Assembly: GCA_032622095.1 (NCBI GenBank)
Contig: CP136064.1
Location: 136,789,954 to 136,853,953 of the forward strand
Origin: Siphonodentalium dalli
Taxonomy: Eukaryota > Mollusca > Scaphopoda > Gadilida > Siphonodentaliidae
Length of the DNA stretch: 64,000 nucleotides
Direction of reading: 5' to 3'
The notes under the pieces are model-generated. The model made no database searches. It had not been told where the DNA came from and saw nothing but the letters and a program-made list of their open reading frames with translations. The position numbers were made by a program, and so were the translations under genes. Of this stretch, positions 12,648-55,397 are shown in pieces. The first letter of the stretch is position 1, and each line of letters opens with the position of its first letter.

Positions 12648-15100
12648 ATATCCCAGATAGCATCCCTACGTTGATCCAACGTAAAATCAACCGTTGGCTC
12701 AACGTTGAAATAACGTTGAGATAACGTTGGCGATTGGTCCAGTTTGCTCGTGGACGTGAACGTAGAATCAACGATAGAGTCAACGTTTGAAAACTAACGT
12801 TGAATTTTGGGACGTTGTATCAACGTTGAATCAACGTTGGAAAAATATTGGAAACCTAACGTTGAATTTTTGGACGTTCGCTCAACGTTGAATCGACGTT
12901 GGGATAATGTTGGAAACCTAACGTTGAATTTTGGGACGTTCATTCAACGTTGAATCAACGTTGAAATAACGTTGGAATCCTAACGTTGATTTTTTGTTAT
13001 GTTAGCTCAATGTTGAATCAACATTGGGATAACGTTGCAAAGCTGACATTGACATTGGGATAATGTTGGAAATCTAACATTGAATTTTTGGGACATTCGA
13101 TCAACGTTGAATCAACGTTGAATTAACGTTGGAAACCTAACGTTTAATTTCTGGACGTTATTTTAACGTTGAATCAACGTTGGGATAACGTTTGAAAGCT
13201 AACGTTGAATTTCGGGACGTTATCTTAACGTTGAATCTACGTTGATATAACGTTGGAAAACTAACGTTGAATTTATGGATGTTATTTTAACGTTGAATCA
13301 ACGTTGAAATAACGTTAGAAATCTAACAGTTTAATTTTTGGACGTTCATTCTACGTTGAATCAATGTTAAAATAACGTTGGAAACCTAACGTTGAATTTC
13401 TGGACGTTATTTTAACGTTGAATCAACGTTGGGATAACGTTTGAAAGCTAACGTTGAATTTCGGGACGTTATCTTAACATTGAATCTACGTTGATATAAC
13501 GTTGGAAACCTAACGTTGAATTTCTGGATGTTATTTTAACGTTGAAATAACGTTAGAAATCTAACGGTTTAATTTTTGGACGTTCATTCTACGTTGAATC
13601 AATGTTGAAATAACGTTGGAAACCTAACGTTGAATTTCTGGATGTTATTTTAATGTTGAATCAACGTTGAAATAACGTTAGAAATCTAACGGTTGAATTT
13701 TTGGACGTTCATTCTACGTTGAATCAATGTTGAAATAATGTTGGAAACCTAACGTTGAATTTCGGGACGTTGAATCTACGTTGAATTAATGTTGGAAACC
13801 TAACGCTGAAATTTGATACGTTGAATCTACGTTGATATAACGTTGGAAACCTAACGTTAAATTTCTGGATGTTATTTTAACATTGAATCAACGTTGAAAT
13901 AACGTTAGAAATCTAACGGTTTAATTTTTGGACGTTCATTCTACGTTGAATCAATGTTGAAATAACGTTGGAAACCTAACGTTGAATTTCGGGACGTTAT
14001 CTTAACGTTGAATTAATGTTGAAAACCTAACGCTGAATTTTAATACGTTGAATCTACGTTGAAATAACGTTGGAAACCTAACGTTCACTTTTTTAATGTT
14101 TGATCAACATTGAATCAACGTTACAATAACGTTAGAAATCTAACAGTTTAATTTTTGGACTTTTGTTCAACGTTGAATCAATGTTGAAATAACGTTATTT
14201 TAACGTTGAATCTACATTGAATTAATGTTGGAAACCTAACGCTGAATTTTGATACGTTGAATCTACGTTGAAATAACGTTGGAAACCCAACGTTGAATTT
14301 CTGGACATTATTTTAACGTTGAATCAACATTGGGATAACGTTTGAAAGCTTACGTTACTTTTGTGATGTTCGATCAATGTTGAATCAATGTTGAAATAAC
14401 GTTAGAAATCTAACAGGTTTTTTTTGGACGTTCGTTCAACGTTGAATCAATTTTGAAATAAAGTTGAAAATCTTAATGTTGAATTTATCTCAACGTTGAA
14501 TCAATGTTGGAAACCTAACGCTGAATTTTGATACATCGATTCTACGTTGAAATAATGTTGGAAACCTAACGCTGAATTTTGATACATTGATTCTATGTTG
14601 AAATAATGTTGGAAACCTAACGTTGAATTTCTGGACGTCACGTTATCTTTACATTGAATCAACATTTAATTAATGTTGGAAACCTAACGCTGAATTTTGA
14701 AACGTTGAATCTACATTGAAATAACGTTGGAAACCTAACATTGAAGTTCGGGATATTCACTCAAGGTCGAAATAATGTTGGAAATCTTAACGGTTGAATT
14801 TTTGGAAGTTCGCTCAACGTTGAATCAATGTTGAAATAACACTGGAAACCTAACGTTGAATTTTCGGGACGTTGAATTAACGTTGAAATAATGTTGGAAA
14901 CCTTTGAATTTCTGGACGTTATCTTAAATAGAATCAACATTAAAATAACGTTGGAAACCAAACCTTTAATTTTGTGACATTATCTTAACGTTGAACCAAT
15001 GTTGGAATAACGTTGGATCCCTATGTTGATCCAACATAAAGTCAACCGTTGGCTCAACGTTGATTCAATGTTTGCAATGTGGACGTAAACGTAGAACATG
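12648..15100. repeat. Long AACGTT-rich array, ~62-bp unit
   Basis: About 2.4 kb of degenerate units reads GGAAACCTAACGTTGAATTT then NGGACGTTATTTTAACGTTG then AATCAACGTTGAAATAACGTT. Spacing is close to 62 bp, giving roughly 37-39 units, with two- and three-unit higher-order similarity. Each unit has several copies of the self-complementary word AACGTT. The array starts with TATCCCAGATAGCAT and CTACGTTGATCCAACGTAAA; the second phrase recurs near 15020. Decayed units continue to about 15400. Confidence 0.9.
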
Positions 15101-18565: not shown

Positions 18566-18700
18566 AATGCCCGTATATAGTGATCATTTTCCACCAGTAC
18601 AAAACCTGGGAACTTTTTGAAGGTTTGATACCCAGGGAACCGTATAAAGTCGATAAATAACAAGGGGAATATAATTCTTTGATATGATTTGTTCCTTATG
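18566..18700. repeat. Dispersed repeat shared with 28853-28990
   Basis: CCACCAGTACAA, GGGAAYTTTTTGAAG, GGGAATATA and TTCCTTA.TTATGTAATTCAC occur in the same order in both places. The second copy sits inside the 25164-30873 element, just before its plus-strand exon-like segment. Confidence 0.6.
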
Positions 18701-19180
18701 AATGTAATTCACTACTGACTGAGAAATATCATATGTACCCCACATTATTATTTTTTATGAGACACAGGGGGGGGGGGGATGTTTCCGAGATTTGCAGGAA
18801 GGTATGCCGGGGTGGGTGGTCCGAGAGACAAAAAAACACATTTTTTACAACCTCATGCAAATTTTTTACTGAAGACCTTTTGTGCCCATATTTGACATTT
18901 GTAACAGTTAAAATCATAACTGCAAAAACACCTTATTTATGTTACTGGGACCTTATATGGGCCTAAATGGAGGTGACATTAAGCTGACATGTTGCATATG
19001 GAATGGTGAAGTAAAAATCTACCTTCCGAAGTTCCCGACACCCTTCAAAAGAAGCTTCGGGAAGTGTAAAACTGAAATAAACTTGTCCTCATGTAACTAA
19101 GACCTTTAAGTCTTGAGTGTGTGCATGGAAAAAGAGCGAGCAGCTGCCTCAAACTATCAATGGCTAGAAAATAATGTTAA

Positions 19181-24647: not shown

Positions 24648-25158
24648 GCCATTTTCACATTTATTCCTTATTTGTGCTTAAGTCCAAATGATTTGTACTT
24701 GAGCGCAAATAAAAATTCATATGCATTGATCCCCACTGAATTAATTTTAAATGGCACAGGCCTAAACACACCACTCAAGCCTATATAGGCCCACCATATG
24801 AGGGAAGCAATCCCACAGTAACCCTAATTCCCTTTTTATGACCACGGAATTAAATGGTATAGATCTGTGCAGGATATGTCTCTTTTTATAAAATATACTA
24901 GATTTCTGGGATGGAGACACAAATTATTGGGGGCAGGGATACTGATAATATGAAAATAGTGTTTTTCCCCCCTTATTGCAAGTCAATATAAGTACTCCAT
25001 GTGAGGGAAGCAAGCCTCCCCCAGTAACCCTAATTCCCCTTTTACGGCCATGGAAATTGTACATATCTGTGCAGGAAATTCCCTTTAATAAAATTTACAA
25101 GAGCTCTTGGAGTGAGGCACCAATTCTTGGGACACCAGGGACAGAGATGCTGATATGC
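24648..25158. repeat. Left half of the repeat split by the 25164-30873 element
   Basis: It starts GGGAGGCCATTTTCACATTT, has TTAAG palindrome remnants and two ~190-bp modules (CCATRTGAGGGAAGCAA...GCTGATAATATGAAAATAG). The same modules lie at 33290-33530. The second module is cut at GCTGATATGCATATG and resumes after 30878 with GAAATATGTTTTTTC. Confidence 0.7.
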
Positions 25159-25163
25159 ATATG
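25159..25163. repeat. Target-site duplication ATATG (left)
   Basis: Exact match to 30874-30878, immediately outside the terminal CACACCGACC. Confidence 0.8.
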
Positions 25164-26568
25164 CACACCGACCATTCGAAAACGCGCATCTGTGTTGCCA
25201 ACCGCGCTTCTACGACGATACAACCGCGCATTTCTAGTTTTATGTTGCAATTTCTGGTCACGAAAAACAGAAAAATACGGTTATCAATTAATTTTGACAG
25301 AATGGAACGGTTGGTATAGTAGAAGTTACATTCGCTCAAAACCTCGATATTTGCCGGGTTGAATTCGATACAATTGTGTATATTTCGTTAAAGCATTGAG
25401 GTAGAAGTAGGCTGCAGAAACAGCCCGGGGTCCTAATTTTGGCACATATTTTTTCACAATGTATCGGCATTTAGCAACACGATTGAGTATTTTCTCGTCG
25501 ATTTTTTCGGATTCCTTTAGTCAAATGTTCCTGCAATCACCTTGCGTTGAAATTTGGGTTCATCCTGTAGCCAATGTCCATAAAATGAGTCGATTTCGGA
25601 AGTGGGTATATCGAAAAATATACGACAGTGCTTCTTTGTGACCAACAACCAACCATCTATGTTGCCGAATTCCTGTCTGATTATAACTAATGTAAATATC
25701 GCGTGTATATGTGTCCGAATCGATGTCCAGAGGAGACTATTTCATTTCCTGAACTAGATGTAGTCAAATTCGTCTCGACTCGTGCTCAACTGACACATTC
25801 GACAAATTATGTTAGTCAAATCAGCTGGTAAACGAGTCCCATATGCAATTGAATGTTGTAGCATGATATACTGGATAATCAGCTGGTTGTCCAGTGCAGA
25901 TGAGGTCGCATGCATGGTTGTAGGAACGTTTTGTAAAGGACTCTGCTATCATTGAACAGATTTTCTTAGTCAGATTTATTTGCGTGAAAGAATACGCGTT
26001 TAACATGTCATATCGGCGTTATATTGGAAAACAATAGGTAGGGCCTATGATTTATTTATACACATCACATATTATTCCTTAGTAACGCCCGTCAATCAAC
26101 GGCTATACTGGTGATGGATACACACATCTGTTTAGTGCATCAAACATGTGCATCGTCTAAATTATCGAAGCATACTATACATAGCGAATATTGTCATTAA
26201 TAACCTCACGCATGTGAGATATTCCTTGGTGACGCCCACCAGCGGTCACACGGATGCGATATATGTAAAAAAAAAAATCTGCATCCAAGCATGTGTATAA
26301 TGTGGTATTCTAATTAGTCTATGCATGCATATTATTGGATTACCATAATAATCTCACGCATGTCAGATATTGCTTAGTGACGACCATCGTCGATCACACG
26401 GGTGCGATCTATGTAACTTCGTTCTGCGTATCCATTTAATGTATAATTTGTTTCATAAATAGTCTACATTACGAGTTATACCTTCAGCACTCGAGAACAC
26501 GAGTACTATGTCTACATTGTATATACAATTATACATCATTCGCATGTGATCATTATATTATCATATGT
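25164..26568 (+). repeat. Left terminal inverted repeat, ~1.4 kb
   Basis: Inverse of 29468-30873. Short frames occur identically or nearly so in both arms (25459-25641 with 30396-30578; 25821-26006 with 30031-30216, one residue different). That shows arm similarity, not coding function. The inner end includes the stop codon of the minus exon. Confidence 0.9.
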
Positions 26569-26728
26569 TGTGGGTTGAACACTCGATTCGCTATCATCAT
26601 CAATCAACGGTATTGTCTCATCGGCTCCGCCGTCCAACAGGAATGTGTCTACGTCCAAGTCAACATCCCCTGCTAATGGAACAAAATCTTCTGGTGCCAT
26701 CGATATCTCACTGTTCAACTTCTTGTCT
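26536..26728 (-). CDS. Candidate terminal exon, acidic tail, possible single-pass membrane protein
   Basis: The acceptor TTTTTTTAATTC...TTTTATTTCCAG is followed on the minus strand by 193 bp: one base finishing a codon, 63 residues and a stop. The tail is acidic (PEDFVPLAGDVDLDVDTFLL, later IPLIDDDSESS) and ends YDNIMITCE. The frame is also open upstream to 26910 and there encodes a hydrophobic run of about 22 residues followed by SRDKK, exactly a membrane anchor plus stop-transfer. Either that anchor is coding or it is a T-rich intron read by chance. The last codons and stop lie in the left TIR. I did not recognise the protein. Confidence 0.4.
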
Positions 26729-26991
26729 CTGGAAATAAAAGTGCATAGAATTAAAAAAAGGACCAGAATAATAATTATGCATGCAACTATATTAATCAAC
26801 ATGACCAATTTCCTCATACAGTGGTTAAAATACACAATAACACTGGCTATACTAGTGCATATATATGTATATCGCAACCGTAAGGCCGGATGGTATGAAG
26901 TACTTGTCATGTGTATTTTCCGACAAAACTATATTATATATTACATATAATGCACATTCGAGAGTAATTTCATATATATATGAATAGTGAA

Positions 26992-28610
26992 TATATAAGA
27001 GAGTATTGTCCATTATGTTGCGCTGATTAAAATACAATGTTCTCGCACATGTTACATCCATATGGCCGCAATTGTCGCTATGTCCATATAACAAGCTTGT
27101 TTGTGAAAAGTTATTGACTTTGGGTTGACTGAAATGTTAACGGATATTTATGCTAGCACGCTTATGCACAGTGGGTAATAAAAAGTGTTTAATATATATG
27201 AATCATCTCGCCTTGAGATAAGACAAAATACGACGATATGTGGTTTAACGAAATATGAAAACCGTAATATATATATTAATTGTATCGAAAGATTATTTTT
27301 CTGCGAAATCTGTGGCAGATGTAAGTATAGCGTAGACCAAATATTATTACCGAGATTATCATAGCACTTACATGTACCGATTAAACCCAGAACAGCGAGC
27401 ACTGGCTATGTCACAAACGAACGGATTGATGTCATGATACCGCTTGGTTCACGCTAGGTTATGGTGGAAAAAGATTATGTGTTGATGACAAATGTTACCA
27501 GGCTGAGCAAATGAAATCGAAAATATATAAGAGAGTATTGTCCATTATGTTGCGTTGATTAAAATAAAACGTTCTCGCTTATGTTACATCCATATGGCCG
27601 CACTTGTCGCCATGTCGATATACCAAGCTTGTTTGTGGAGTGATTGACTTTGGGTTGACTGAAATTTTAACTGACAGCTATACTAGCACGCTTATACATT
27701 GTGGGTAATAAAACGTTCTTAATATATGAATAATCTCACCATAAGATAAGACAAAATACGACGATATGTGGTTTAACGAAATGTGAATACCGTAATATAT
27801 ATTAATTGTATCGGAAGATTATTTTTTTGCGAAATCTGTGGCAGATGTAAGTATAGCGTACGTAGACCAAAAATTATTACCGAGATTATCATAGCACTTA
27901 CATGTACCGATTAAACCCAGAACAGCGAGCACTGGATATGTCACAATCGAACGGATTGATGTCATGATACCGCTTGGTTCACGCTAGGTTTTGGTGGAAA
28001 AAGATTATGTGTTGATGACAAATGTTACCAGGCTGAGCAAATGAAATCGAAAATATATAAGAGAGTATTGTCCATTATGTTGCGTTGATTAAAATAAAAC
28101 GTTCTCGCTTATGTTACATCCATATGGCCGCACTTGTCGCCATGTCGATATACCAAGTTTGTTTGTGGAGTGATTGACTTTGGGTTGACTGAAATTTTAA
28201 CGGACAGCTATACTAGCACGCTTATACATTGTGGGTAATAAAACGTTCTTATTATATGAATCATCTCACCATAAGATAAGAAATATTAGGACTATATGTG
28301 GTTTAACGAAATGTGAATACCGTAATATATACTAAATGTATCGGAAGATTATTTTTTTGCGAATTCGGTGGCGGAAGTATGTATAGCGTAGACCAAATAG
28401 TATTACCGATATTACGAGATTATCATAGCACTTACATGTAGACCGGTTAAATCCAGAACAGCGACCACTGCATGGCTACGTCACAATCGAACGGATTGAT
28501 GTCAAGACACCGCTTGGTTCACGCTAGGTTTTGGTGTAAAAATATTATGTGTTGATGACAAATGTTACCTGGCTGAGCAAATGAAACCAGTATAAATCCA
28601 CGATGGATTA
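26992..28610. repeat. 534-bp unit in three direct copies
   Basis: Units begin AATATATAAGAGAGTATTGT at about 26992, 27525 and 28059, a period of 533-534 bp. Each contains ATGTTACATCCATATGGCCG, GACTTTGGGTTGACTGAAAT, TGGCAGATGTAAGTATAGCG and GATTGATGTCATGATACCGC. Copies 1 and 2 are close; copy 3 is more diverged at its end. Confidence 0.9.
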
Positions 28611-29071
28611 AAATGGTAAGATATATAGAATTACTCAATACAAAACGTGAACCGTTTGAGGGACGGCCACATTATACAGCGTGTGCATGGTGCGCGCTTA
28701 TATGTGTGCCCGTATCACTATATAACGGTATGAGATGAAACATGCCAATTACAGGTTGTTTATAACAGTTTGTAATGCTTTTTGACATTGAAATGCTTAT
28801 TATTGATCGATCATAAAAGGTTTACAGCATGCCATGCATTTCTATTCTGACTAACACCCGTATATATAAATCATATTCCACCAGTACAAGATATGGGAAT
28901 TTTTTGAAGTTTTGACTGGAGCATTATAAACTCGAAAATATAACGCCGGGAATATATTTCTTAGTTATTACCTGTTCCTTAATTATGTAATTCACTCTGC
29001 GCGAAGGTCGCAACTCTAAATTTAGCGATTTCAGTGACTTTGTGAGAGTGTTTGCTTTGCGTTGCTTACAG
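28611..29071. other. Unassigned stretch before the plus-strand exon
   Basis: 28853-28990 repeats 18566-18700. The rest is not recognised. If the exon at 29072-29290 is real, its 3' part is intronic. Confidence 0.4.
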
Positions 29072-29290
29072 TTAAGGAATTTCTCCTCGATAATAAATTC
29101 AATGTTTATTACGATATTGGCTCACAAAAGTTACAGAAAAGCATGCAATCTCAACCTGATACCACCCCAAATATGCAACAGATTATTGAGGAACAGGTAT
29201 TAACAAAGACAAGAACCAGCGACCCATCACCTTTGACTCGGATGAACTACAGTAACCCGACAGGTAATCGTCTGCCAATCTGTGAACACG
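29072..29290 (+). CDS. Candidate internal exon, phase 1-1, unknown protein
   Basis: The acceptor TTGCTTTGCGTTGCTTACAG and the donor CACG|GTATGT bracket exactly 219 bp. With two leading bases and one trailing base it gives 72 uninterrupted codons (a symmetric 1-1 exon). The product is polar, rich in Q, T, N and P (QKLQKSMQSQPDTTPNMQQI, ending NRLPICEH). No domain was recognised. It lies inside the transposon, on the opposite strand to the 26536-26728 exon. It could be transposon-encoded, captured host sequence, or chance; correct splice sites at both ends in one frame argue against chance. Confidence 0.4.
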
Positions 29291-29467
29291 GTATGTAATT
29301 ATAGAATACCTGCAATCCATTCCATATCGTGGGCATTTGTAAACACTGATATGTTCTTTATTGCCTCCTTTTGAGGAGAGAGATAGTTAGTACATGGTTA
29401 TTTACAATACATTGTACATAAATCAAAAGATCAAATCACAAGCACATGCACTCAATGTATAAATATA

Positions 29468-30873
29468 GTCATATGACGATATAATGATCACATGCGAATG
29501 ATGTATGATTGTATATACAATGTAGACATAGTACTCGTGTTCTCGAGTGCTGAAGGTATAACTCGTAATGTAGACTATTTATGAAACAAATTATACATTA
29601 AATGGATACGCAGAACGAAGTTACATAGATCGCACCCGTGTGATCGATGATGGTCGTCACTAAGCAATATCTCACATGCGTGAGATTATTATGGTATAAT
29701 CCAATAATATGCATGCATAGACTAATTATAATACCACATTATACACATGTTTGGATGCAGATTATTTTTTACATATATCGCATCCGTGTGACCGCTGGTG
29801 GGCGTCACCAAGGAATATCTCACATGCGTGAGGTTATTAATGACAATATTCGCTATGTATAGTATGCTTCGATAATTTAGACGATGCACATGTTTGATGC
29901 ACTAAACAGATGTGTGTATCCATCACCAGTATAGCCGTTGATTGACGAGCGTTACTAAGGCATAATATGTGATGTGTATAAATAAATCATAGGCCCTACC
30001 TATTGTTTTCCAATATAACGCCGATATGACGTGTTAAACGCGTATTCTTTCACGCAAATAAATCTGACTAAGAAAATATGTTCAATGATAGCAGAGTCCT
30101 TTACAAAACGTTCATACAACCATGCATGCGACCCCATCTGCACTGGACAACCAGCTGATTATCCAGTATATCATGCTACAACATTCAATTGCATATGGGA
30201 CTCGTTTACCAGCTGATTTGACTAACATAATTTGTCGAATGTGTCAGTTGAGCACGAGTCGAGACGAATTTGACTACATCTAGTTCAGGAAATGAAATAG
30301 TCTCCTCTGGACATCGATTCGGACACATATACACGCGATATTTACATTAGTTATAATCAGACAGGAATTCGGCAACATAGATGGTTGGTTGTTGGTCACA
30401 AAGAAGCACTGTCGTATATTTTTCGATATACCCACTTCCGAAATCGACTCATTTTATGGACATTGGCTACAGGATGAACCCAAATTTCAACGCAAGGTGA
30501 TTGCAGGAACATTTGACTAAAGGAATCCGAAAAAATCGACGAGAAAATACTCAATCGTGTTGCTAAATGCCGATACATTGTGAAAAAATATGTGCCAAAA
30601 TTAGGACCCCGGGCTGTTTCTGCAGCGTATTTCTACCTCAATGCTTTAACGAAATATACACAATTGTATCGAATTCAACCCGGCAAATATCGAGGTTTTG
30701 AGCGAATGTAACTTCTACTATACCAACCGTTCCATTCTGTCAAAATTAATTGATAACCGTATTTTTCTGTTTTTCGTGACCAGAAATTGCAACATAAAAC
30801 TAGAGATGCGCTGTTGTATCGTCGTAGAAGCGCGGTTGGCAACACAGATGCGCGTTTTCGAATGGTCGGTGTG
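29468..30873 (-). repeat. Right terminal inverted repeat, ~1.4 kb
   Basis: Inverse of 25164-26568. Its inner edge reads, on the plus strand, the codons YDDIMITCE and stop, mirroring the minus exon's YDNIMITCE. Upstream in-frame stops show only that tail is duplicated. Confidence 0.9.
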
Positions 30874-30878
30874 ATATG
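30874..30878. repeat. Target-site duplication ATATG (right)
   Basis: Exact match to 25159-25163, directly after the terminal GGTCGGTGTG. Confidence 0.8.
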
Positions 30879-31040: not shown

Positions 31041-32136
31041 GGAAGGCCGTTTTCACATTTATTAGATAATTGAACTTAAGCGCAATTCAATTGCGCTTAA
31101 GTTGCTTAATCGTAATTCAATTTCGCTTAAGCACAATTACTTACATCTGTATCCAATTGATTTGCGCAATTGATTTTCGCTTAAGTGCAAATGAATAGCG
31201 CTATAGCAAGTTTTCACCCCTCAAAGATCAAATGAGGTTCATAATAAGGAGGCCCCCACCCCCCTGGAATACGGAATACCACTTAACACAGAGGGTGGAA
31301 TACGGAATAACAGTTAACAGCCATATGGAATACGGAGTACCAGTTAAGATCAGATAAGATAATTTATTGACGATAAAATGATCTAAAAGGCAACATGGTA
31401 GTAAAACGCCGGTCATCCCGCAGTGTCCACGTCTAAAATGATCTAAAATGACGATGATTGACGATCTGTATGTGAATTTATTGTGACAAAAATCGCATTT
31501 ATATTATTACTAGCAGGTGACCCGACTTCGTCCGGGCTTTGACCTTGAATTGACCATTTTGAAGGTCAAGGTCAGGGCGGGGGTCACGATTTGACCCGTC
31601 GAACTTACCCCCCCCCCCCCCCCCCCCCCCCCCCGCCCCCGATAAAAATATCCCTAGGTATAAAATTTCGTCGAAAACCGTTAATGCCTTTTTACCATAT
31701 GTGACACCACATGCATAATAATGCTATATGACCATATTAATGTCCCAAATCCATGCAAAAATACTTCTAAAAAATTATATAAAACAATTCTAGAGTTCCG
31801 GGAAGGAGAAATCAATTCTTTGGATATAGGGATGCTGATAATATGTAATTATGGATTATCATTGTTGTACACATACATCTACTCACAGACGACTGTTGAG
31901 TACTCAGGCTAATTAAAACAGGTTAAACTTAGCCCAATGCTCCTCTTGTGTTGCTACTAGGTGATACACCAGGTCATGTCAATAGTTTATGGATAGGTTA
32001 GATGGTAGTTACAATTACGCTAGCCTAAAGCGCGATTAATTGCACGTGGTATTTGCACTTAAGCAAAATTATTTGTGCTTAAGCGCACTCAATTGCTCTT
32101 AAGTGCTATTCATTATTAAATGTGAATTTGGTCTCC
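31041..32136. mobile_element. TTAAG-palindrome element, copy 1, about 1.1 kb
   Basis: The ends GGAAGGCCGTTTTCACATTTA and (inverted) GGAGACCAAATTCACATTTA are related to those of 32804-33995. Subterminal blocks repeat TTGCGCTTAAGCGCAA-type palindromes (about 31070-31200 and 32030-32110). It is interrupted by a Helitron fragment at 31510 and a GGAATACGGAATAC tandem patch (31255-31345). Confidence 0.6.
31510..31690 (-). mobile_element. Helitron 3'-end fragment with a ~30-base C tract
   Basis: Read on the minus strand it ends with hairpin CCCGGACGAAGTCGGG, spacer TCACCTG and CTAG followed by T. The body shows GACCTTGAATTGACCATTTT and GGTCACGATTTGACCCG, as in 36038-36939 and 43200-43500. A run of about 30 C (31608-31634) interrupts it. 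The 5' end could not be placed. Confidence 0.6.
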
Positions 32137-32803: not shown

Positions 32804-33995
32804 ATGGGAGGTCAAATTCACATTTAATAATGAATTGTGCTTAAGGGCAATTAATTTCACTTAAGTAGAAATGATTGCGCTTAAGATCAATTGATGGCGC
32901 TTAAGCGCAAATAAATTATGCTTAAGCACAATCAATTGCTCTTAAGCTTAATTATTTGTGCTTAAGCATAATTATTTGCACTTATTTATGCTTAAGTGCA
33001 ATTTACGGTTATATGTAACTAAACACACCTGGTAGATAAATAGGTTTATCCATAACTCAACCTTAACCTATTGACATATCACCTCTTGTTTTCATTGGTT
33101 TGGATGGGTAGGGAGCCACATTAACTTTTTTGTTAAAATGGCTGACTCGCCATAACATTACCTTCTGGTTTAGTCGGGGCAACTCGTGATAGCATTATAT
33201 TTTTTCAGCATTAGTCAGGGCGACTCGCGATAGCATTACCTTCTGTATTAGTCAGGGCCACTTTGAGTTTCTTCAATCTTTGAGTATACAGGCACACCAT
33301 ATGGGGGAAGCAAGCCCTCATTGACAACACGGTCACCCTATATGACCATGGAAATACTATTTATCAATGCAAGAGATGCTAATTTAATTAAAATACTGGA
33401 GCTCAAGGACTGAGACACCAAAGCTCCAGTAATGAAACACCAATTTTTGGGACAGGAATGCTGATAATATGAAAATAGGGTTTTTTCCTTGATTTAAGTT
33501 AATAAGTACACCATATGAGGTAAGCAATCCCTCATGAAGTGACACCACATTCATGCTATATGACCATAGTAATGGGCCAAATCTGTACAAAAATACTTTA
33601 AAAAAATTAAATGGACAAATACAAGAGTTCCAGGAGGGAGACATCAATTCTTTATGCTGATAAAATGAAATTAGGGATTATCTTTGATTGTTGTGCACAG
33701 ACTCACAATTGACTGTTGAGTACTAGGCTAATAAAACAGGTTTTAAAATTAGCCACATGTTCCTCTTGTGTTGCTAGGTGTCAAATACACCAGGTTATGC
33801 CAATAGTTTATGCCTTTATGGGAATATAGGTTAGATAGTAGTTAAAATTTCGCTTGAGCGCAATTCATTATGCTGAAGCACAAATGCCCTGTTTGTGCTT
33901 TTAAGCACATGCAATATGTGGTATTTGCGCTTAAACGTAATTATTTGCGCTTTTAACAGCATAATTCATTATTAAATGTGAATTTGACCTCCCAT
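32804..33995. mobile_element. TTAAG-palindrome element, copy 2, 1192 bp, 7-8-bp TSD
   Basis: TIRs ATGGGAGGTCAAATTCACAT and its inverse ATGTGAATTTGACCTCCCAT, continuing TTAATAATGAATTGTGC. TSD ACTTCTTC on the left (32796-32803) and ACTTCTTG on the right (33996-34003), 7 of 8 identical. Subterminal TTAAG palindrome arrays occupy 32840-33000 and 33850-33970. The core holds ~190-bp CCATATGAGG modules. An 8-bp TSD would suit hAT, but the termini are not typical. Confidence 0.75.
33135..33265. repeat. Short tandem repeat, ~50-bp unit, three copies
   Basis: AGTCAGGGCGACTCGCGATA and GCATTACCTTCTG words repeat three times with substitutions. Confidence 0.65.
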
Positions 33996-34510: not shown

Positions 34511-35015
34511 GATCATACAGCATTTTTTAACGTTGAAAATATAACGTTGATTAAACGTTGGAAAAATAACGTTGATACAACGTTGGGAAAATAACATTGA
34601 TTCAACATTGGAAAAATAACGTTGATTCAACGTTGAAAATATAACGTTGATTCAACGTTGGACAAATAACGTTGATTCAACGTTGGAAAAATAACGTTGA
34701 TTCAACGTTGGAAATACAACGTTGTTTCAACATTGATTTATTATTGGAGATATACCACAAACTCCAATTGCTCTTGCTAATTCCCTATTTCTGTTAATTT
34801 AACAACTCTAAATATAATGTTGGAAATAAAACGTTGATTCAATGTTGGAAAAATAACGTTGATTCAACGTTTGAAAAATAACGTTGATTCAACGTTGGAA
34901 AAATAACGTTGATTCAACGTTGGAAAAATAACGTTGATTCAACGTTGAAAAAATGACGTTGATTCAACGTTGGAAATACAACGTTCTATCAACATTGATT
35001 TATTATTGGCTACAA
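34511..35015. repeat. AACGTT arrays, ~35-bp unit, two blocks
   Basis: Blocks 34530-34735 and 34820-34995 repeat AACGTTGATTCAACGTTGGA plus AAAATA. Each ends in ACATTGATTTATTATTGG and GCTAATTCCCTATTTC, giving a higher-order period of about 290 bp. This is a shorter and purer unit than in 12648-15100. Confidence 0.9.
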
Positions 35016-35208: not shown

Positions 35209-35400
35209 ATGGGAGGCCAAATTCACTTCAAATAATTATTTGTGCTTAAGCACAATTATTTTCCCTTAAGCTCCATTATTTGTGCTTAAGCGGAAATAAT
35301 ATAATTTCGCTTCAGTACAAATAAGCTATTTTTAAATTATTTGCTCTTAAACACAATTATTTGAGCTTAAGCGCAATTAAGATAATTAAAAACCATTACC
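35209..35400. mobile_element. Fragment of a TTAAG-palindrome element
   Basis: Left end GGGAGGCCAAATTCACTTCA followed by TTTGTGCTTAAGCACAATTA-type palindromes. No right end was found. Confidence 0.55.
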
Positions 35401-35659: not shown

Positions 35660-35932
35660 CTTGCAGCGTTGGCAGAACGTTGGTATACCGTTGGTTGATT
35701 TACCGTTAGTTTTTCAACGTTTAACCAACATTTAAGTAACGTCGTGGGAATTACGTTGGAAAAACTTTGTTGAAATAACGTTGGAAAAACGTTAGAAATC
35801 TAACCGTTGAATAACCGTTGGGAATCAACGTTGAATCTACGTTGATTCAACGTAGTGAAAACTAACCAACGTAAAATCAACGGTACCAACGAAAAACCAA
35901 CGTAGAATCAACGTAGCGTTGCTATCTGGGAT
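35660..35932. repeat. AACGTT array terminus with GCTATCTGGGATATA end
   Basis: CAACGTTGAATCTACGTTG-type words lead to GCGTTGCTATCTGGGATATA. This is the exact inverse style of the start of the 12648 array (TATCCCAGATAGC), suggesting both are ends of one transposon family with internal AACGTT arrays. Confidence 0.7.
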
Positions 35933-36939: not shown

Positions 36940-37512
36940 CTAGCCGATGAGCCCGACGTTGTCCGGGCTATTCAAAAACAAAATTTCAAGTCGATAGCTC
37001 TACCCGTTTCCGAGATCTGGTCTGCGCATGCGCAAAGCCAAATTTTAAGTCGATAGCTCCACCCGTTTCCGAGATCTGGCCTTCGCATGCGCGAAGCTTG
37101 CGTCGCACGGGCTCGGCGACCCGATAAAATTCGTATCCGGGGCAAGATACATTCACATAGCAAATTTCAAGTCGATAGCTCCGCCCTTTTCCGAGATCTC
37201 GTCTGCGCATGCGCGAAGCTGGCGTCGCACGGGCTCGGCGACCCGATAAAATTCGTATCCGGGGCAAGATACAATCACATACCAAATTTCAAGTCGATAG
37301 CTCCACCCGTTTCCGAGATCTCGTCTGCGCATGCGCGAAGCGGGCGCCGCACGGGCTCGCCAATACGACAACGTCCACCGCCTGGTCAAACTACACACAC
37401 GTACCAAGTTTGGTCCCGATCGGTCGAGAATCGTAGATTTGTATAAATGACAAACATACAGACATACAAACATACAGACAAACAGACAGAGGTCTTCAAA
37501 ATATATATGAGA
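36940..37512 (-). mobile_element. Non-autonomous Helitron, 573 bp, tandem with the previous one
   Basis: On the minus strand it starts TCTCATATATATTTTGAAGA and ends AGCCCGGACAACGTCGGGCT, CATCGG, CTAG. The interior is three to four ~122-bp modules (AAATTTCAAGTCGATAGCTC, GAGATCTCGTCTGCGCATGC, GATAAAATTCGTATCCGGGG). Frames across these modules are repeat translations. It is nearly identical in layout to 53555-54090. Confidence 0.8.
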
Positions 37513-37546
37513 TATATATATATGTATAGATATATGGATACGTAGG

Positions 37547-37975
37547 ACACACCGACACCGCCATGCGCAAGTATGGTTACTGTGTGCTGAAGTATCCCAG
37601 AACCCAGCTCTATATGTGTGTGCCATATACATATATATTCGTTTATACTCTGCCCAGGGCACACCGACACCGCCACATGCCCGTATATACCGTGTGCTTT
37701 ATGTATACATGTATGTATGTGTACTCAGTCCAGGACACACCGACACCGACACCGCCACATGCCTGTATATATATAGACGATGTGCTTTATGTACATATAT
37801 ACATATATATTCGTTTATACTCTGCCCAGGGCACACCGACACCGACACATGCCCGTATATACGGTGTGCTTTATGTATACATGTAAGTGTACTCAGTCCA
37901 GGACACACCGACAGTTTATATACCCGTTCGTACTCTGCCCAGGGCACACCGACACCGCCATATGCCTGTATAGTG
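37547..37975. repeat. CACACCGACACCGCC minisatellite, alternating two unit types
   Basis: Units start GGACACACCGACACCG or GGGCACACCGACACCG at about 37551, 37659, 37733, 37829, 37901 and 37941. Between them lie ATATATTCGTTTATACTCTG or CATGTATGTATGTGTACTCA. The mirror copy is at about 63180-63615. Confidence 0.85.
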
Positions 37976-38048
37976 GAGTAGATTAAGTAAAAATTTCAAG
38001 GCAATTGTTCAAATTGTGACTAAAGCATGAAACTTTGCACATATGTAC

Positions 38049-38290
38049 AGGAGTGGGGTGGGGGGGGACGTGGGGGCTGGTGGGGGGTGGTGGATCGGGG
38101 GGATAGGGGGGTTGTTGGGGTGGGTGGGGGGAGGGGGTGGGAGGGGTGAGGGAGGGGGGCAGGGTCGAGGGGGGGTGGGTGTGTGGACCTGGGGGCCATG
38201 TGGTGTGGGTGTGGGGGGGAGGTTGTGTGGGGTGGGGTGGAGGGAGGGTGTGGGACCGGGTGGGGTTGAGGGAGAGGAAATGAGAGAGAT
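38049..38290. repeat. 242-bp G-rich block replacing unrelated sequence of equal length
   Basis: Almost pure G with scattered T, A and C. The mirror arm has 242 bp of ordinary AT-rich DNA (62859-63100) in the same place, between identical flanks ATATGTAC and AATGGCAGC. The two 242-bp blocks do not align by eye. It could be a real minisatellite gain or a consensus error. All frames in it (82-103 codons, both strands) are composition artefacts. Confidence 0.7.
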
Positions 38291-40035
38291 AAATGGCAGC
38301 TGAAAGAGGAAATTTGACATTTTTTCACTAATATCTTCTAGATCAGGTTCGCTGTATGGAACTGGTTTGGAGATGTGACTTTATTTTGTATTGTTCGTGT
38401 TAACTGATCATTAGAGCAATGAAATATGCCATTCGTGTGATTCCAGTCCCTTCCGATCCCTCAATAATTCGATTATACAGAACTCGGTATGACATTTCAC
38501 AGAAAATCACCGTTAGGATTCTAGTCATATTTTAACAAGAAATTGACAGAACTGTGCGAATTAAGTGAGGCATACAATTAATTACGAATATTTGAACTCA
38601 ATCAACAAAAATTGTCACTTTGTCGGAAATGGCTGCCAATATGGCGGCCAAAACATGGAAAATGGTAAATATTGCCCCAGCATGCCATGTAATCGCTTAC
38701 AAGTTGTGATTGACGAATACAATTGGCTATGCTGTCTACATTAAATTTTAGCATTTTTGATGCACATTTGTTAAGTGTTACTAATGTAACCAATGATATT
38801 GCCAGAATTATTGGATTTTTATATCACAAGCTTGACATCAAAATTGGCAAAAATTTATTTTTCGAGTCTGGACCATTAATTCAAGTAAATGGGACTATCT
38901 TTGGTATCAAAGATGTTTGTTGTTTTTGGTCTGTCTTAAATGCGTCACACTAATGTGTTTTAAGACAACATTACTCAAGATGGCTTCCAAAATGGCAACC
39001 ACATTTGGTAATTTTGTTTTACATATATCCCGAGTAGTATTCTCTGTTCCCAAGAGTTAGCAAATTGTAACTCACTTGGTTAGTAACCATATTACTTAAT
39101 CCACTGACTACTACGTGTTTCATTCTCGTTGTCCCTGTACCTTCTGCTGGGGCATGATTAATTCATTTAAATGATGTACTGTAGTGTGGACTTTTGCCAA
39201 AAATGTCTTTTGGGACTCTGGCCATATATTTTAACGGAAAAGAGCAGAATGTCTAAACGGAACAGAGTGAAACCATATCAGCATAAAAATCAACTTAATT
39301 ATATGGTGTATATCAAAATGGTATAGCCAGGGAGTTATTGTATGGTCATGAATGGTGCGAATGAGTAGCCTATACGGTGATGAGATGGTGTGTCCATGGT
39401 GAGATGTATATGTATACAAGGGGTGACTGTATGGTCATGTGTGAGGTGATTAGCTATACAAGGATTATGTGTATGGTTATTGGAGTGGTGTATTCGGTAT
39501 AGTACAGTAGGTAGGCATTGTATGTCTTTTCTTCAGTCTATAGCATGACATTAACCAATACCGTGTGATTTGACTTCTGAAAGTTTGAGGATTAGGCAAG
39601 GTCGTATTACAAGTATATATATAGTGACTGTATGGTAATGTGTGGGATATACATGCCTACATTGGGTGACTATTGTCACAGATGGGTGTATGTGTATGCA
39701 TATGTTGGCTGTATGATCACGCGTGGGACTGCGGGTGTATGCATATATATGGAGTGGTTGTATGCTTATGTACAATGTATATAGGTGTACATGGAATGAC
39801 TGTATCATGATTGTTGAAGTGTACATGCATACCTGGAGCATAGCTGGATGGTCTTTGGTGGTGTATGGGTATATATGAAGTGCCCATGTGGTCATGGTTG
39901 CATGGTCATGGTTGCATATGTGATGTATATGCATCTCTACCATATTACGTTATGGGGTGTAATGTTATATATTTACATACACCTAATGTCGCTTCCGATT
40001 TCCCCATAGCGTTACGGTAGACACGCCCCCTGATT

Positions 40036-46980: not shown

Positions 46981-47630
46981 TAGAAAAAATGGTGTGACCT
47001 ACCGGTATGAGACTACTTGTTTTTACGTGGCTTCAAAGGGGATTCTCACGAAATGCTACTTGCGAGGCTGCAAATCAAGTGTCAATGTATTATGTGACTT
47101 AAAGTTGGCGCATGTGAAGTAGTCAGCAGATTGTATTTTTTCAACCCTTCATTCACAATTTAGAGAGTTCATTAAGAAATAAAGCGTGATTAAGAAAAAT
47201 ATTGTATATTTGTAAATAAGGTTGCTAATGTGGCTAGCCACTTAAGCCGTCCGTCCGTGTCCATAGAACACTGGTTGGACATCCATATTGATGGACAAAT
47301 TGTTTCAATTTATTACAGACAATTTTTTCAAGTGACTTTCTCAGGCCAGTTAGATCACATTTCAGCTGTCAAATGAGGTTGCTTATGTGACTAGCCACAT
47401 AATCAATCATTTGAGTCCAAATGGTATTTGAGTGGCTTCGAAGACACATAAGTGGCATTTTGTGGGAACACACGGAACCACGGACGGACGGACGAGGGTC
47501 ATTTCTATAGTCCTCCGACGGAACGTCGGGGGATAACAATATTATACATGTACATGTATGGCACCGTTCATTATATGCATTCAATTTAATGAAAACAAAT
47601 TATACATATCCACATGTACTAGTAGCCAGG

Positions 47631-48112
47631 GATGGATCCAGGGATTTTTTGGGGACACCTGTTTTGGGACCATGATATGTCGAAGGCATATCCCGAGGGC
47701 CGTAGGAACCGAGATGGGGTAGGTACGGGGGGTAGCCCCCCCCCATCCCTTAGGTGCAGCATTAAAGATCCCGCATAAGAAAATGTACTGGCTTACAAGG
47801 TCAAGATAAAGGCCAATGTATTATCTTATATATGCGAGGCTCCTTAGATGGGAGACTCTCATTTATATAAGAGAATGCATTGGCACAGGATTTTTGCAAA
47901 GTTTCAAGAAGTCCCAGTCATGAAAGGGTTAAAATATTGTATATTGATGATTTGCATTGCATGTTGTTGAATTATAATAGAAGATTTCCTTCAGAATATA
48001 GAAAATTCAGCTTTAATAAAACTATCCACTTGCAATTTGGGGACATTTAGGCCACCAGAGTTTGGGCGCCCAAACCTGTAACAAGTATCAAAAGAGCCCT
48101 GGATCCTTCCCT
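47631..48112. mobile_element. GGATCCAGGG-terminated element, full copy with inner MITE half
   Basis: The left end GGATGGATCCAGGGATTTTT and the right end (inverted) GGAAGGATCCAGGGCTCTTT form imperfect TIRs. The interior includes a piggyBac-like hairpin (ATTATCTTATATATGCGAGG...AAGAGAATGCATTGG) ending AAAGGGTTAA. Compared with 21764-22075, that hairpin segment is the insertion. Confidence 0.65.
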
Positions 48113-48780
48113 GCTAGTAGCATGACCCCTGCATATCCAGTGAGATTCAATTTGCATAAGGTTGTAAAAAAAATGAGCTTTTGACTCTCGGGCCACCCAC
48201 CCACACCGGCATAGCTTCCTGCAAATGTGTTATTACCCCACCCCTCTGGATTCGAAAAAACTTTTTAAAAAGTGTGTTTTCCCAATCCACCCCTTCCCAG
48301 AGTCCCCAGCTGTTGTTCACTTGTGAACTCCTTGGTTTATTCTAAATTATTCACTTACCGGTACATCACACCACCTTTAATCAAGCCCAATTACACTACA
48401 TGTAGATGTAGTACACTTCTACATTAATGTACATGTATATGGTACAGTGTAGGCAGTATGTTTAAAGAAAAATACTCACAAAAAGGCCTTCTTATCGACC
48501 CTAATTCTGGGAGGGGGCAATTAGGGGAAATCACACCTATATTTTCCTTAGGCCTTATTTTGAAGTTTACATGTATGCTGACATTGCAAATGAGCCATGC
48601 CGACAACCCCCCCCCCCCGCAAATGAATAAGGAAAAATTTACGTGTAAATTTTTGACGCATAGGTACACCCCCGGTACGTTGTGTCCCGCAGTTTTTGCT
48701 ACTGCCCCCCCCCCCCCCTTGAGTATGACAGACAAAACACGATACCGGTACGTACATGTAGTCAATTTCAACAAGACATA

Positions 48781-49161
48781 TCCTGCTAGACAAAACAAGT
48801 GTCCACTTAACTGCGGTGAGGTTAGCGTTGCCACCACGGCCGAAATGCAACTACACCACGATTCCACCGGCTAAATACAGTTGGGCCGCGGTGTTATCGC
48901 CATTTGGCATGGTGTAGTTGCCATGGTGTACTTTCATCAAACTGAAAAATAAAAATACAAATCAAAAATCTAACCATGGTGTACATGTACATGCCATTCG
49001 GCCGCGAGGGTAGTTGCCTTTCGGCCACAGTGAATTTGCCGTTTGGCAGCAGTGTACTTGCCGTTCGGCCGCGGTGTTCAACTGCAGTTACAAACTCTGA
49101 CACCGCGGCCAAACGGCAAATACACCACGGTCCCAATGGACACTTGTTTTGTCCAGCGGGG
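48781..49161. mobile_element. TA-flanked MITE with CGGCCGCGGTG minisatellite, 381 bp
   Basis: Ends TCCTGCTAGACAAAACAAGT and (inverted) CCCCGCTGGACAAAACAAGT; TA at 48779-48780 and 49162-49163. The interior repeats a ~24-bp motif, TTGCCGTTCGGCCGCGGTG, in both orientations. It is inverted relative to the copy at 54996-55342. Frames here are repeat translations. Confidence 0.8.
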
Positions 49162-50032
49162 TACATGTACATGCCATGTTTGTTCATCGTTATAAAATTT
49201 CCACATCAGAACAAGGAGGGGGGTTCTGAAAAATAGTTCTGGCACGTATGCTCATTTTTTCCTTTCGACCCTTGTTGGGAACTTCGGACCCACCCAAATT
49301 TGTTTCCGTTTTCGGCAGTTTTTTCCGACCATTTTTTGACACTCCCCTCCTTTTAACACTAAAACAGAGATTTGCAGGAAGAAATTCACTGTAAACAACT
49401 TTATATGAATTTCTCTGCATACTATTTGTCATGGATGTTAACATTGAAATATACGGTATATAGGAACAAGTAATGTTGGGGTCATTTGGCCAAAAACATG
49501 GCTGCCAGCGACAAAAATTTGCAACAAAATACAACACGATAACTGCCTGCAGTCAGTTTAGCAGTTAGAATTACATTATTTTTGTTGGTCCAATCAACTT
49601 CCCACCCGGCCATACCGGTACATGCCTGCAAAAATTTCCTTCCCCCTGCATCAGAACAGGTTAGAGTATCAAACAGTTCTCAGGTTTTATACTGGTGGGA
49701 TATGATTTCTACAGGCATACATGTAGCTAAAGTAGTGAATCATGGCATGATCTACTAGTACCGGTACATATTCTTTTTTTCAAATAAACAAAATTCAATA
49801 ATCAATATTCAAGAAATTTAGACAACTCTTTTACACCAACTGGTGAGCACTATGCCAGGAAGAATGGTTGATCTATTTTTGACCAAAGGATCTAGTAAAG
49901 ATTGATCGGTTGGTTCATTGATGGCTAATGCTGTGAGCATGTTCGACACACATCCAAACTGGACTACATACATGTACCTCATTTTGGCTGATGGGGTCAT
50001 TGTCACAAGGCTCCGGTCACATTCGTACAGGG

Positions 50033-50277
50033 ATGGATCCAGGGATTTTTCGGGGACACCTGTTTTGGGACCATGATATGCCAAAGGCATATCCCTAGCC
50101 CTAGGGCCGTAGGCCCGAGATGGGGGTAGGTATGGGAGGGGGTCGCCCCCTCCCTTAGGTGCAGCATTAAAGATCCCGCATAAGAAAATGCACTGGCTTA
50201 CAAGGTCAAGATAAAGGCCAATGTATTATATTATATATGCGAGGCTCCTTAGATGGGAGACTCTCATTTAATTAAGA
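50033..50277. mobile_element. GGATCCAGGG element, left part of split copy
   Basis: Matches 47631-47870 (GGATCCAGGGATTTTTCGGG, CCATGATATGCCAAAGGCAT, TACAAGGTCAAGATAAAGGC), stops at TTTAATTAAGA and resumes after the Helitron chain at 54091. Confidence 0.75.
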
Positions 50278-51120
50278 CTAGCAGGTTAGCCCGCCACCGG
50301 CGGCGTTTGTTCGAAACATGACATTTTTTTAATTATTTTGTTTTTATTTATATATTTTTTAAATATATCTTAATATTAATTTAATGTTTTTTAAATTTAA
50401 TTTATGTTTTTAATATTAATTTAATGTTTTTTAAATTTAATTTATGTTTTTTTGAATTTTTTAATATTTATTTAATTATTAATTTAATTAAATTCTTTTT
50501 TTTATAATTTAATTGTTTTTTTTATGAAAAATCCCCCCTTCCTAGGAACGACAGACAACGCATTCTTTGTTTTTCAATGAGTTAATTCATGGTACCCGTC
50601 CTAAACTTCCCCGTTATTTAACTCCCCGTGGCCATTGAGCAGCCCCTGACAGAGGTTGTCCACCCTTACGAGATGGTCAATAGAACTCGATGAAATCCCC
50701 CCCCCCCCCCTCCTAGGAACGACAGACAACGCATTCATTGTTTTCCTTTTTTTTTAACACTGATTCCCGGAAACGACTCACATAAGCATGACGTCGAATC
50801 CGGTATTGCATTGAAAACAAACGCGATAACATTGCATTGAATTGCCCGTCATACAGATAAGTAGATAGCGAAAACGACGCTCTTTATATAGACACTTCGG
50901 AAAACTGACGCTCTTTAACTATTAACGCGATTAACCCACGCCATGCCTTTGCAGTGATTTTGAGAGTGGAGAACGCGTGCTCTGAGCTTCTTCAAAACGC
51001 CGCGCCGACGATTCCCGTGGGTTTTTACACTTAGATGGGAAGTTTGAACTCAATCGAGCGAACCGTTTTTGATTCTATGAAGTACACATATATATATACG
51101 AAGTCTCAAAATATATAGTA
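50278..51120 (-). mobile_element. Helitron, copy 1 of a four-element chain
   Basis: Minus-strand 3' end: GCCGCCGGTGGCGGGC, TAACCTG, CTAG then T. The 5' end is TACTATATATTTTGAGACTT, lacking the TCTA seen in its sisters, so slightly truncated. A T-rich stretch fills 50320-50520. Confidence 0.75.
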
Positions 51121-52277
51121 CTAGCAGGTTAGCCCGCCACCGGCGGCTTGTCCGAAACATTGTTTATATTTGTTTTTAATTTTTAGCTCCACGCGTTTCA
51201 ATAAGAAAAAATTGTACCCGGTAGCTCCACCCGTTTCCGAGATCTGGTCTGCGCATGCGCGAAGCTGGCTTCGCACGGGCTCGGCGACCCGATCAAATTT
51301 GTACCCGGCCCAAGATACATTCACATAGCAAATTTCAAGTCGATAGCTCCACCCGTTTCCGATATCTCGTCTGCGCATGCGCTGCACGGGCGTCGCATGG
51401 GCTCGGCGACCCGATAAAATTTGTACCCGGCGCAAGATACATTCACATTGCAATTTTCAAGTCGATAGCTCCACCCGTTTCCGAGATCTGCCTTTTTAAT
51501 CGAGATAAATGCATTTCGTACCCGTCCTAATGTACTATTTCGAGCGATAACAATTGTCAGACTCCCATCGTGAACCTCAACACGAAGTAAACACGTGTTT
51601 CGAGCGATAACATTGCATTGAAGTCAGACTCCCATCGTGGACCCCCAAGACGACGTAAACACGTGTTTGTTCCCGTATAACTCTGGAGACTCTGACTTCA
51701 TATATATATATATAATGACGTTATTAACCGCGGCTGTGCCGTTTGAGCTGATTTTAATGACTGGGAGTGGAGTACGGGTGCTCGGAGCTTCTGGAAAACG
51801 CGTGGACGACATCGTACGTGTATTTTACCTCTAGATGGGAAGTTTGAGCTCAATCTGTCCAGCCGTTGTACTATTTCGAGCGATAACAATTGTCAGACTC
51901 CCATCGTGAACCTCAACACGAAGTAAACACGTGTTTCGAGCGATAACATTGCATTGAAGTCAGACTCCCATCGTGGACCCCCAAGACGACGTAAACACGT
52001 GTTTGTTCCGGTATAACTCTGGAGACTCTGACTTCATATATATATATAATGACGTTATTAACCCCGGCCGTGCCGTTTGAGCTGATTTTGATGAATGGGA
52101 GTGGAGAACGGGTGCTCTGAGCTTTTCTAAACCGCGACCACGGTCGTGTCGGTGAGATTTGACACTTACATAGGAAATTTGATCTCAATCTGTACACGCG
52201 TTTTGGATTCTATGAAGTACACACACACACACACACATACACACATATATACGAAGTCTCAAAATATATAGTATAGA
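51121..52277 (-). mobile_element. Helitron, copy 2, with internal 338-bp duplication
   Basis: 3' end GCCGCCGGTGGCGGGC, TAACCTG, CTAG; 5' start TCTATACTATATATTTTGAG. TATTTCGAGCGATAACAATT to ACTTCATATATATATA appears at 51531 and again at 51869 (period 338). 51220-51500 contains the same CTCCACCCGTTTCCGAGATC modules as 36940-37512. Confidence 0.8.
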
Positions 52278-53554
52278 CTAGCAGGTTAGCCCGCCACTGG
52301 CGGCATTCGTCCCATGGCTTTGTTCGAAAAAGCAATTGCAACAGGTTCCGAGACACTTGTGCAGCAAATTTCGGCAATAGTCAGAAACATGACAATTTAT
52401 TTTTTGTTTTTCAATGAGTTAATTGTGCTTTTTTAATTGAATATTTTGTTTTTAGATTTTACCAGATTTTTTTTGGTTTTTCAAGGAGTTAATTTTGCCT
52501 TTTTAATTTTGTTTTTCAATGAACCCGTCCATGACACTTCCCGTATTTAGCAAGTTTGAGCTCAATCGGTTCGAGTCTATAAAGGACACACACATATATA
52601 TGACACTTCCCGTAGGTAGCAAGTTTGAGCTCAATCGGCATTCCCTGGAATTTCCCAGTCAATATTTAGCAAGTTTGATCTCAATCGGTTCGAGTCTATA
52701 AAGGACACACTCATACCGGTATATATATGACACTTCCCGTAGGTAGCAAGTTTGAGCTCAATCGGCATTCCCTGGAATTTCCCAGTCACCAACGCGGCGT
52801 AATTTTGGTACATATATAGAGACCAATTGTCCATCGGCTGTCATGTGTAGTAAAGATGTCTTATAAGCCGACATTGCCGTGGGGATGCCCGTTCCTACAC
52901 GCGTTTTCGATTCTATGAGTAGATTGGCAGATTCCAGTAGCTTTATAACGGTATCTGGGGAGAAATCTGTTGCTATATTCGTGATTATCTGGGATGATTT
53001 CGGTATATACACGGTACCAAAGGTATATACTGTAAAAACAAAGCGCGCCATCCGTGCTCGCAGGGAATAAATTTCGAGCGATAACGTTTGCGTAAATACG
53101 AAATTGTGAGTGTTGGTTTGTAACCGGGATTTCTGAGAAGCATTATGCCTATAACTACCCCCCTAAGCCCTGACCTAAGTGTCATACATACTAACAATGA
53201 TGTTGTAAGAGCTCCAATAAATCTCCCCGCATAGGCAAGCACTCAATGTTCCCGTATAACTCTGCAGATGCCAATAACGTTGAATGGGAAAGAGACGCTC
53301 TTTATAGAGATGCGTCAAAAACAAACGCTCATTAAATAATCACTTGGTTAACCCACGCCGTGCCTTTGCGGTGATTTGAGATTGGAGAACGGGTGCTCTG
53401 AGCTTCTCTAAACCGCGACCACGGTCGTGTCGGTGGGATTTTACACTTACATAGGAAGTTTGAGCTCAATATGTACACGCGTTTTGGATTCTATGAAGTA
53501 CCCACACACACACACACACATATATATACGAAGTCTCAAAATATATAGTATAGA
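52278..53554 (-). mobile_element. Helitron, copy 3
   Basis: 3' end GCCGCCAGTGGCGGGC, TAACCTG, CTAG directly followed by the TC of copy 2; 5' start TCTATACTATATATTTTGAG. The interior repeats GTAGCAAGTTTGAGCTCAAT four times (52550-52780). It shares 3'-proximal sequence with the Helitron ending at 1600 (GCTTTGTTCGAAAAAGCAAT). Confidence 0.8.
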
Positions 53555-54090
53555 CTAGCCGATGAGCCCGACGTTGTCCGGGCTATCCAAAAACCAAATT
53601 TCAACCGATAAAATTCGTATCCGGGGCAAGATACATTCACATAGCAAATTTAAAGTCGATAGCTCCACCTGTTTCTGAGATCTCGCCTGCGCATGCGCGA
53701 AGCTGGCGTCGCACGTGCTCGGCGACCCGATAAAATTCGTATCCGGGGCAAGATACATTCACATACCAAATTTCAAGTCGATAGCTCCACCCGTTTCCGA
53801 GATCTCGTCTGCGCATGCGCGAAGCTGGCGTCGCACGGGCTCGGCGACAAAATTCGTATCCGGGGCAAGATACATTCACATACCAAATTTCAAGTCGATA
53901 GTTCCACCCGTTTCCGAGATCTCGTCTGCGCATGCGCTGCACGGGCTCGCCAATACGACAACGTCCACCGCCTGGTCAAACTACACACACGTACCAAGTT
54001 TCGTCCCGATCGGTCGAGAATCGTAGATTTGTATAAATGACAAACAAACATACAGACAAACATACAGAGGTCTTCAAAATATATATGAGA
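53555..54090 (-). mobile_element. Helitron, copy 4
   Basis: 5' start TCTCATATATATTTTGAAGA, 3' end AGCCCGGACAACGTCGGGCT, CATCGG, CTAG, abutting the TC of copy 3. Four ~120-bp modules fill the interior. It is a close relative of 36940-37512. Confidence 0.8.
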
Positions 54091-54786: not shown

Positions 54787-54842
54787 TGACCGAAGCCTTG
54801 TGACAATGACCCCATCGGCCTCATTTTGTCTATCATAGGCTA

Positions 54843-55395: not shown

Positions 55396-55397
55396 TA

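Follow-up and report, generated by a model that had tools for sequence, protein, structure and literature searches.

Among the DNA transposons with long terminal inverted repeats (TIRs) described so far, Galileo (P superfamily, Drosophila) has binding sites that recur within its TIRs (PMC3688188), and Tetris, a foldback element of Drosophila virilis, includes copies that lack a transposase and carry tandem units of ~220 bp, no transposase being found in the account of PMC4079207. With respect to terminal features, CA..TG ends and target site duplications (TSDs) of 2-5 bp prevail in the CACTA/EnSpm-Mirage-Chapaev-Transib group, and hAT5 families make 5-bp TSDs (both according to PMC12730594). 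Non-autonomous RAGL elements are also on record (PMC7204232). Here, we describe the locus at positions 25159-30878 of a 64-kb stretch of contig CP136064.1 (hereafter, the window, meaning the whole 64,000 nucleotides analysed), which is very probably a transposed element and which we regard, with considerable confidence, as a non-autonomous, foldback-like cut-and-paste DNA transposon.

The boundaries of the element are given by four features:
25159-25163, no strand: left target site duplication ATATG (sequence read, arm alignment and direct-repeat test)
25164-26567, + strand: left TIR of 1,404 bp, beginning with CACACCGACC (repeat finder, arm alignment)
29470-30873, - strand: right TIR, likewise of 1,404 bp (repeat finder, arm alignment)
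30874-30878, no strand: right target site duplication ATATG (sequence read, arm alignment and direct-repeat test)

Based on the alignment of the left arm to the inverted right arm, the two 1,404-bp arms share 98.4% identity, and a second repeat finder recovered the same arms in blocks. The 22 difference columns comprise 18 substitutions and two 2-base indels, whereas CACACCGACC opens both arms and their outermost 30 bases show no difference. The arms thus have the length of about 1 kb or more that is typical of foldback-like elements. ATATG adjoins both arm ends directly, the arrangement of inverted termini and adjoining TSD that defines a TIR-type DNA transposon, and among the direct-repeat lengths tested (k = 1-11) only k = 5 fits; therefore, the TSD length is unambiguous in this copy. 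A 5-base match at a fixed place would be expected by chance about once in 1,000.

The left flank is part of a repeat that recurs locally, its relatives lying at 24.9, 33.4, and 31.8 kb; two of these, both uninterrupted, have the following coordinates (joined-flank alignment and anchored test):
24778-24966, + strand: uninterrupted relative of the host repeat, used for the empty-site comparison
33283-33534, + strand: a further uninterrupted host-repeat relative

When the flanks were joined with a single ATATG kept and compared to the three relatives, the host-repeat relatives aligned across the junction. Using an anchored test, in which the 35 bases past the TSD were compared to the bases past ATATG in the relative (null: 5,000 random 35-mers from the window for each), we found significant matches for the 24.9-kb (P 0.002) and the 33.4-kb relative (P 0.005). 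When the whole 82-bp right flank was used and the joined score was compared to 200 shuffles, the 33.4-kb relative exceeded all of them (score 155; shuffle mean 132, maximum 153), whereas the 24.9-kb (score 195; mean 179.5, maximum 199) and 31.8-kb relatives (score 73; mean 70, maximum 90) fell within the shuffle range. Support from the empty site is good across about 20-35 bases and weak farther out. An earlier, sequence-only reading had proposed a transposon with 1.4-kb TIRs and an exact 5-bp ATATG duplication directly outside its termini, all of which is borne out by the arms, the TSD, and the empty site at two of the three relatives. Its further claim, that the rejoined host repeat matches the 24.9- and 33.4-kb relatives, held for both over the anchored 35 bases, but only for the latter over the full flank.

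Within the arms, the following features were identified, the repeat copies by alignment and the difference-free stretch by arm comparison:
25180-25235, + strand: left tip motif cluster with three GCGC cores, two of them within AACCGCGC; candidate transposase-binding repeats
30802-30857, - strand: right tip motif cluster, the mirror of the left, in which one AACCGCGC becomes AACAGCGC
26198-26268, + strand: 71-bp arm-internal repeat, copy 1
26346-26416, + strand: 71-bp arm-internal repeat, copy 2, 84.5% identical to copy 1
25411-25902, no strand: 492-bp stretch without differences between the arms

The GCGC cores sit 21, 41, and 63 bases from the tip, and four of the six AACNGCGC sites in the window fall inside the two tips. 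This spacing of 20-22 bases is close to two helical turns and would possibly suit binding repeats for a transposase. Repeats within the arms, another foldback-like trait, are present to a modest degree (the single 71-bp repeat, in two copies per arm, which are 84.5% alike on the left and 87.3% on the right). A gap of 492 bp without differences is not expected under uniform placement of 20 events (P 0.003), and arm-to-arm gene conversion likely accounts for it. The CpG ratio is 1.32-1.38 in the arms and the tandem units described below; the two flanks have lower values (0.58 and 0.79), as does the remaining interior (0.93-0.96).

The interior contains tandem units, found with a repeat finder and alignment, and a dispersed repeat:
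26568-29469, no strand: interior between the arms, with no recognisable transposase (arm alignment, Pfam scan)
26983-27514, + strand: 530-bp tandem unit 1
27515-28044, + strand: 530-bp tandem unit 2, 92.8% identical to unit 1
28045-28586, + strand: 530-bp tandem unit 3, 94.7% identical to unit 2 and 89.0% to unit 1
28857-28996, + strand: dispersed repeat inside the element

The dispersed repeat has a related stretch at 18570-18713 (77%) and a partial relative on the opposite strand at 49669-49711 (43 bases, 79%); with a length of ~145 bp, it is possibly a short interspersed nuclear element (SINE) or a miniature inverted-repeat transposable element (MITE) inserted in the interior.

Coding content was examined by a six-frame Pfam scan of the left arm and the interior, with X placed at stops (the right arm being a 98.4% copy of the left). 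Across these frames no Pfam family reached its cut-off, the two matches below it being RtcR (E-value 0.0098) and ASFV_J13L (E-value 0.094), and this copy gave no family match to RAG1, RAG2, the RAG1/Transib core transposase, the hAT transposase, or integrase and polymerase families. Single Pfam scans covered ten of the 56 open reading frames (ORFs) of at least 45 codons, a set in which some reach into the flanks; matches at E-values up to 5 were obtained for four of these ten, every one below the family cut-off. Compared to first-order Markov sequences (300 simulations), the longest left-arm ORF (76 codons; simulated mean 93) was reached in 81% of simulations, the longest interior ORF (123 codons) in 11.7%, and the ORF length observed in region 25320-25745 alone in 30%. 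The two minus-strand arm ORFs (25329-25520 and 25520-25741) had no Pfam match, and for the former a phmmer search of PDB gave a single match (E-value 1.4) and tblastn against phages none at E-values up to 1. Pattern searches of IMG/VR with 25329-25520, 25520-25741, and 26539-26838 returned 0, 8, and 28 matches, respectively, none of which was confirmed as a relative by tblastn. Single-sequence folds reached a predicted local distance difference test score (pLDDT) of 71.1 for 25329-25520 and 61.7 for 25520-25741, and the two arm differences within 25329-25520 are synonymous, which is too few to weigh. A further minus-strand ORF (26536-26928; 130 codons stop-to-stop) spans the boundary between interior and arm and encodes a hydrophobic stretch with an acidic tail; small membrane protein families match it below their cut-offs (best PF05568, E-value 0.0035, 17.6 bits, cut-off 23.6), as expected of a hydrophobic stretch.

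Because ORF lengths are chance-like and no Pfam family reached its cut-off, the copy is taken as non-autonomous, and coding cargo was rejected on the same two grounds. Where the sequence-only reading had left a choice between a non-autonomous lineage and novel cargo, the non-autonomous state stands and novel cargo is not supported.

The sharp ends and subterminal motifs of the element are what cut-and-paste transposition requires; with no enzyme recognised in this copy, movement would presumably occur in trans. The enzyme would be a DDE-type transposase encoded at another genomic locus; it would recognise the tips, probably through the GCGC motifs, cleave at CAC, and link the ends to the target with a 5-base stagger, after which gap repair would leave ATATG on each side. 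The arms may have been lengthened and kept alike by arm-to-arm gene conversion, and the original interior may have been replaced by the 530-bp tandem units, with the dispersed repeat carried along. The element is well bounded and appears to be of an ordinary kind, possibly from a family not yet described. Among the literature matches listed none describes it (Repbase was not searched), and among the matches listed for the tip string in papers none concerns transposons by title, the string being probably part of primers there. An exact 24-base tip pattern had no match in viral contigs or in bacterial and archaeal genomes, a weak test for a presumably eukaryotic host.

Several observations weigh against this interpretation. 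The element is known from a single copy, with no second insertion within the 64-kb window, and ATATG is locally common (ATATGCATATG to the left of the element and ATATGGAAATATG to its right), which raises the chance of an accidental 5-base match. The 31.8-kb relative gives no anchored 35-base match (P 0.38), and the binding role of the tip motifs is one that we infer from their arrangement. The CpG excess, considered as a sign of recent arrival, was rejected in that role because 158 segments of 1.4 kb taken outside the element include 23 with an equally high ratio. The first three of these points would also suit an inverted duplication that arose by rearrangement, with a 5-bp match by chance, but ATATG lies flush against each arm end and the flanks rejoin as a repeat that has two uninterrupted relatives, which makes such an origin very improbable. 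Hardly more credible is a relic of a Polinton-type self-replicating virus-like element that has lost its core genes. Long TIRs would fit it, as would the hydrophobic ORF at 26536-26928 with its sub-cut-off membrane-family matches, but PF05568 reaches only an E-value of 0.094 in the whole-frame scan, and neither an IMG/VR relative of 26539-26838 nor an integrase or polymerase family in the left arm and interior was found. The longest interior ORF has a length that 11.7% of Markov sequences reach (the boundary-crossing ORF itself lies outside that simulation), and Polintons make 6-bp TSDs, compared to 5 bp here.

The non-autonomous, foldback-like cut-and-paste transposon therefore remains our preferred interpretation, and within it the source of the transposase can be narrowed only in part. 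The sequence-only reading had pointed to a Transib/RAG-like combination, and in this one copy the first three bases (5'-CAC) and the TSD length of 5 agree with it, but the likeness does not extend further. Given CAC, the tip matches the recombination signal sequence (RSS) heptamer at five of seven positions (P 0.26) and CACWATG likewise at five of seven (P 0.45), neither above chance, and AAA is absent from tip positions 8-10. The protostome RAGL tip consensus of PMC7204232 is matched at 9/17 positions (P 0.59 given CAC). The nonamer reaches 2/9 at spacings of 12 and 23, 0-2/9 at 20-22, the range reported for some Transibs (PMC8355894), and at best 6/9 at a spacing of 5. ATATG has one G or C among its five bases, compared to the GC-rich TSDs preferred by ProtoRAG, Transib, and RAG (PMC8289069), although one TSD proves little. 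The TIR tip of an Aureococcus RAGL element, CACACCCAAACCT (PMC9435367), shares CACACC with ours and agrees at 8/13 positions overall (P 0.075 given CAC), a likeness worth a look and not evidence in itself; the second sequence element of this Aureococcus RAGL, CCTCAAYAYG, is matched at 3/10 at each reported spacing (4 and 13) and at 6/10 at the best of 40 spacings.

Together with the existence of non-autonomous RAGL elements (PMC7204232), the CAC end, the exact 5-bp TSD, and the shared CACACC leave some room for a non-autonomous Transib or RAGL derivative moved by a RAG1-like transposase; set against the chance-level fits beyond CAC, the poor nonamer, the missing AAA, the AT-rich TSD, and the lack of a RAG1 or RAG2 family match in this copy (which an autonomous partner could still carry), we consider this unlikely, though far from negligible. 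Because 5-bp TSDs also occur in hAT5 families and CA..TG ends throughout the CACTA-Mirage-Chapaev-Transib group, the known features are not specific to Transib. The TSD length would also be explained by a non-autonomous hAT5 element, mobilised by a hAT transposase of the kind that leaves 5-bp TSDs, but hAT elements start with YARNG, which CACAC does not fit, and this copy has no hAT family match; we judge this origin improbable. Our tentative guess, held at rather less than even strength, is the CACTA-Mirage-Chapaev-Transib group, with half of that expectation assigned to a Transib/RAG-like element; what is left after this group and hAT5 goes to something else or undescribed. A CAC-ended, 5-bp-TSD lineage with kilobase arms, whose transposase would be an undescribed relative of Transib/RAG1 that recognises spaced GCGC motifs and not a nonamer, is a reading that we rate as improbable.

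Other repeats occur elsewhere in the window. A larger repeat is present as two inverted copies at 37508-39948 and 60410-63646, separated by about 20-25 kb and composed of blocks with 92-98% identity, and tandem arrays in which the units resemble AACGTTGAA and the periods include 11, 25, 51, and 62 bases occur at 12701-15017 (CpG ratio up to 2.41), 34528-34985, and 35753-35916. Short tandem repeats of 20-30 bases centred on CTTAAG flank the element at 31075-31131, 32829-32984, 35234-35291, and 35335-35379, and more weakly at 24670-24710. A 122-bp tandem unit is found at 37038-37359, 51222-51489, and 53604-53937; the arrays are similar by eye, with matches of 91-94% within each array. Positions 47000-56000, which together with the left arm and interior make up all of the sequence scanned against Pfam, gave no six-frame match at E-values up to 0.01, and Rfam gave none in the window at its gathering threshold.

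This locus adds one well-bounded, long-armed element, the tips of which (CACACCGACC with a 5-bp TSD) are sharp enough for a driver search in the host genome. A RAG1-like driver would show that RAG/Transib chemistry can operate on arms of kilobase length through another recognition motif; with any other driver, the element would be a routine entry in a repeat library.

Compared to known systems, the element combines shared and distinct traits. Galileo has a 7-bp TSD, compared to 5 bp here, and neither the P-type transposase with a THAP domain nor the 7-8 bp TSD of the P superfamily was found in this copy. Transib, RAGL, and ProtoRAG share the CAC end and the 5-bp TSD with it; they differ in that our element shows neither the heptamer nor the protostome RAGL consensus above chance, has an AT-rich TSD, and lacks a RAG1 or RAG2 match. 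The hAT5 families differ in their tip letters and in the transposase family that this copy does not match, and share the 5-bp TSD (PMC12730594). Among the Ginger1 and Ginger2/Tdd elements, TDD-4 and TDD-5 likewise make 5-bp TSDs, whereas the remaining Ginger1 and Ginger2 elements have 4-bp TSDs; Ginger ends read TGTNR, compared to CACAC here (Ginger features as described in PMC2836005). Tetris makes TSDs of 8-10 bp and carries its tandem units inside the arms, whereas those of the present element lie between them, a comparison of build and not of sequence (PMC4079207). Both Galileo and Tetris likewise have TIRs longer than 1 kb with internal repeats (PMC3688188, PMC4079207), and by this analogy the long, homogenised arms with repeats described here appear to follow the same foldback pattern.

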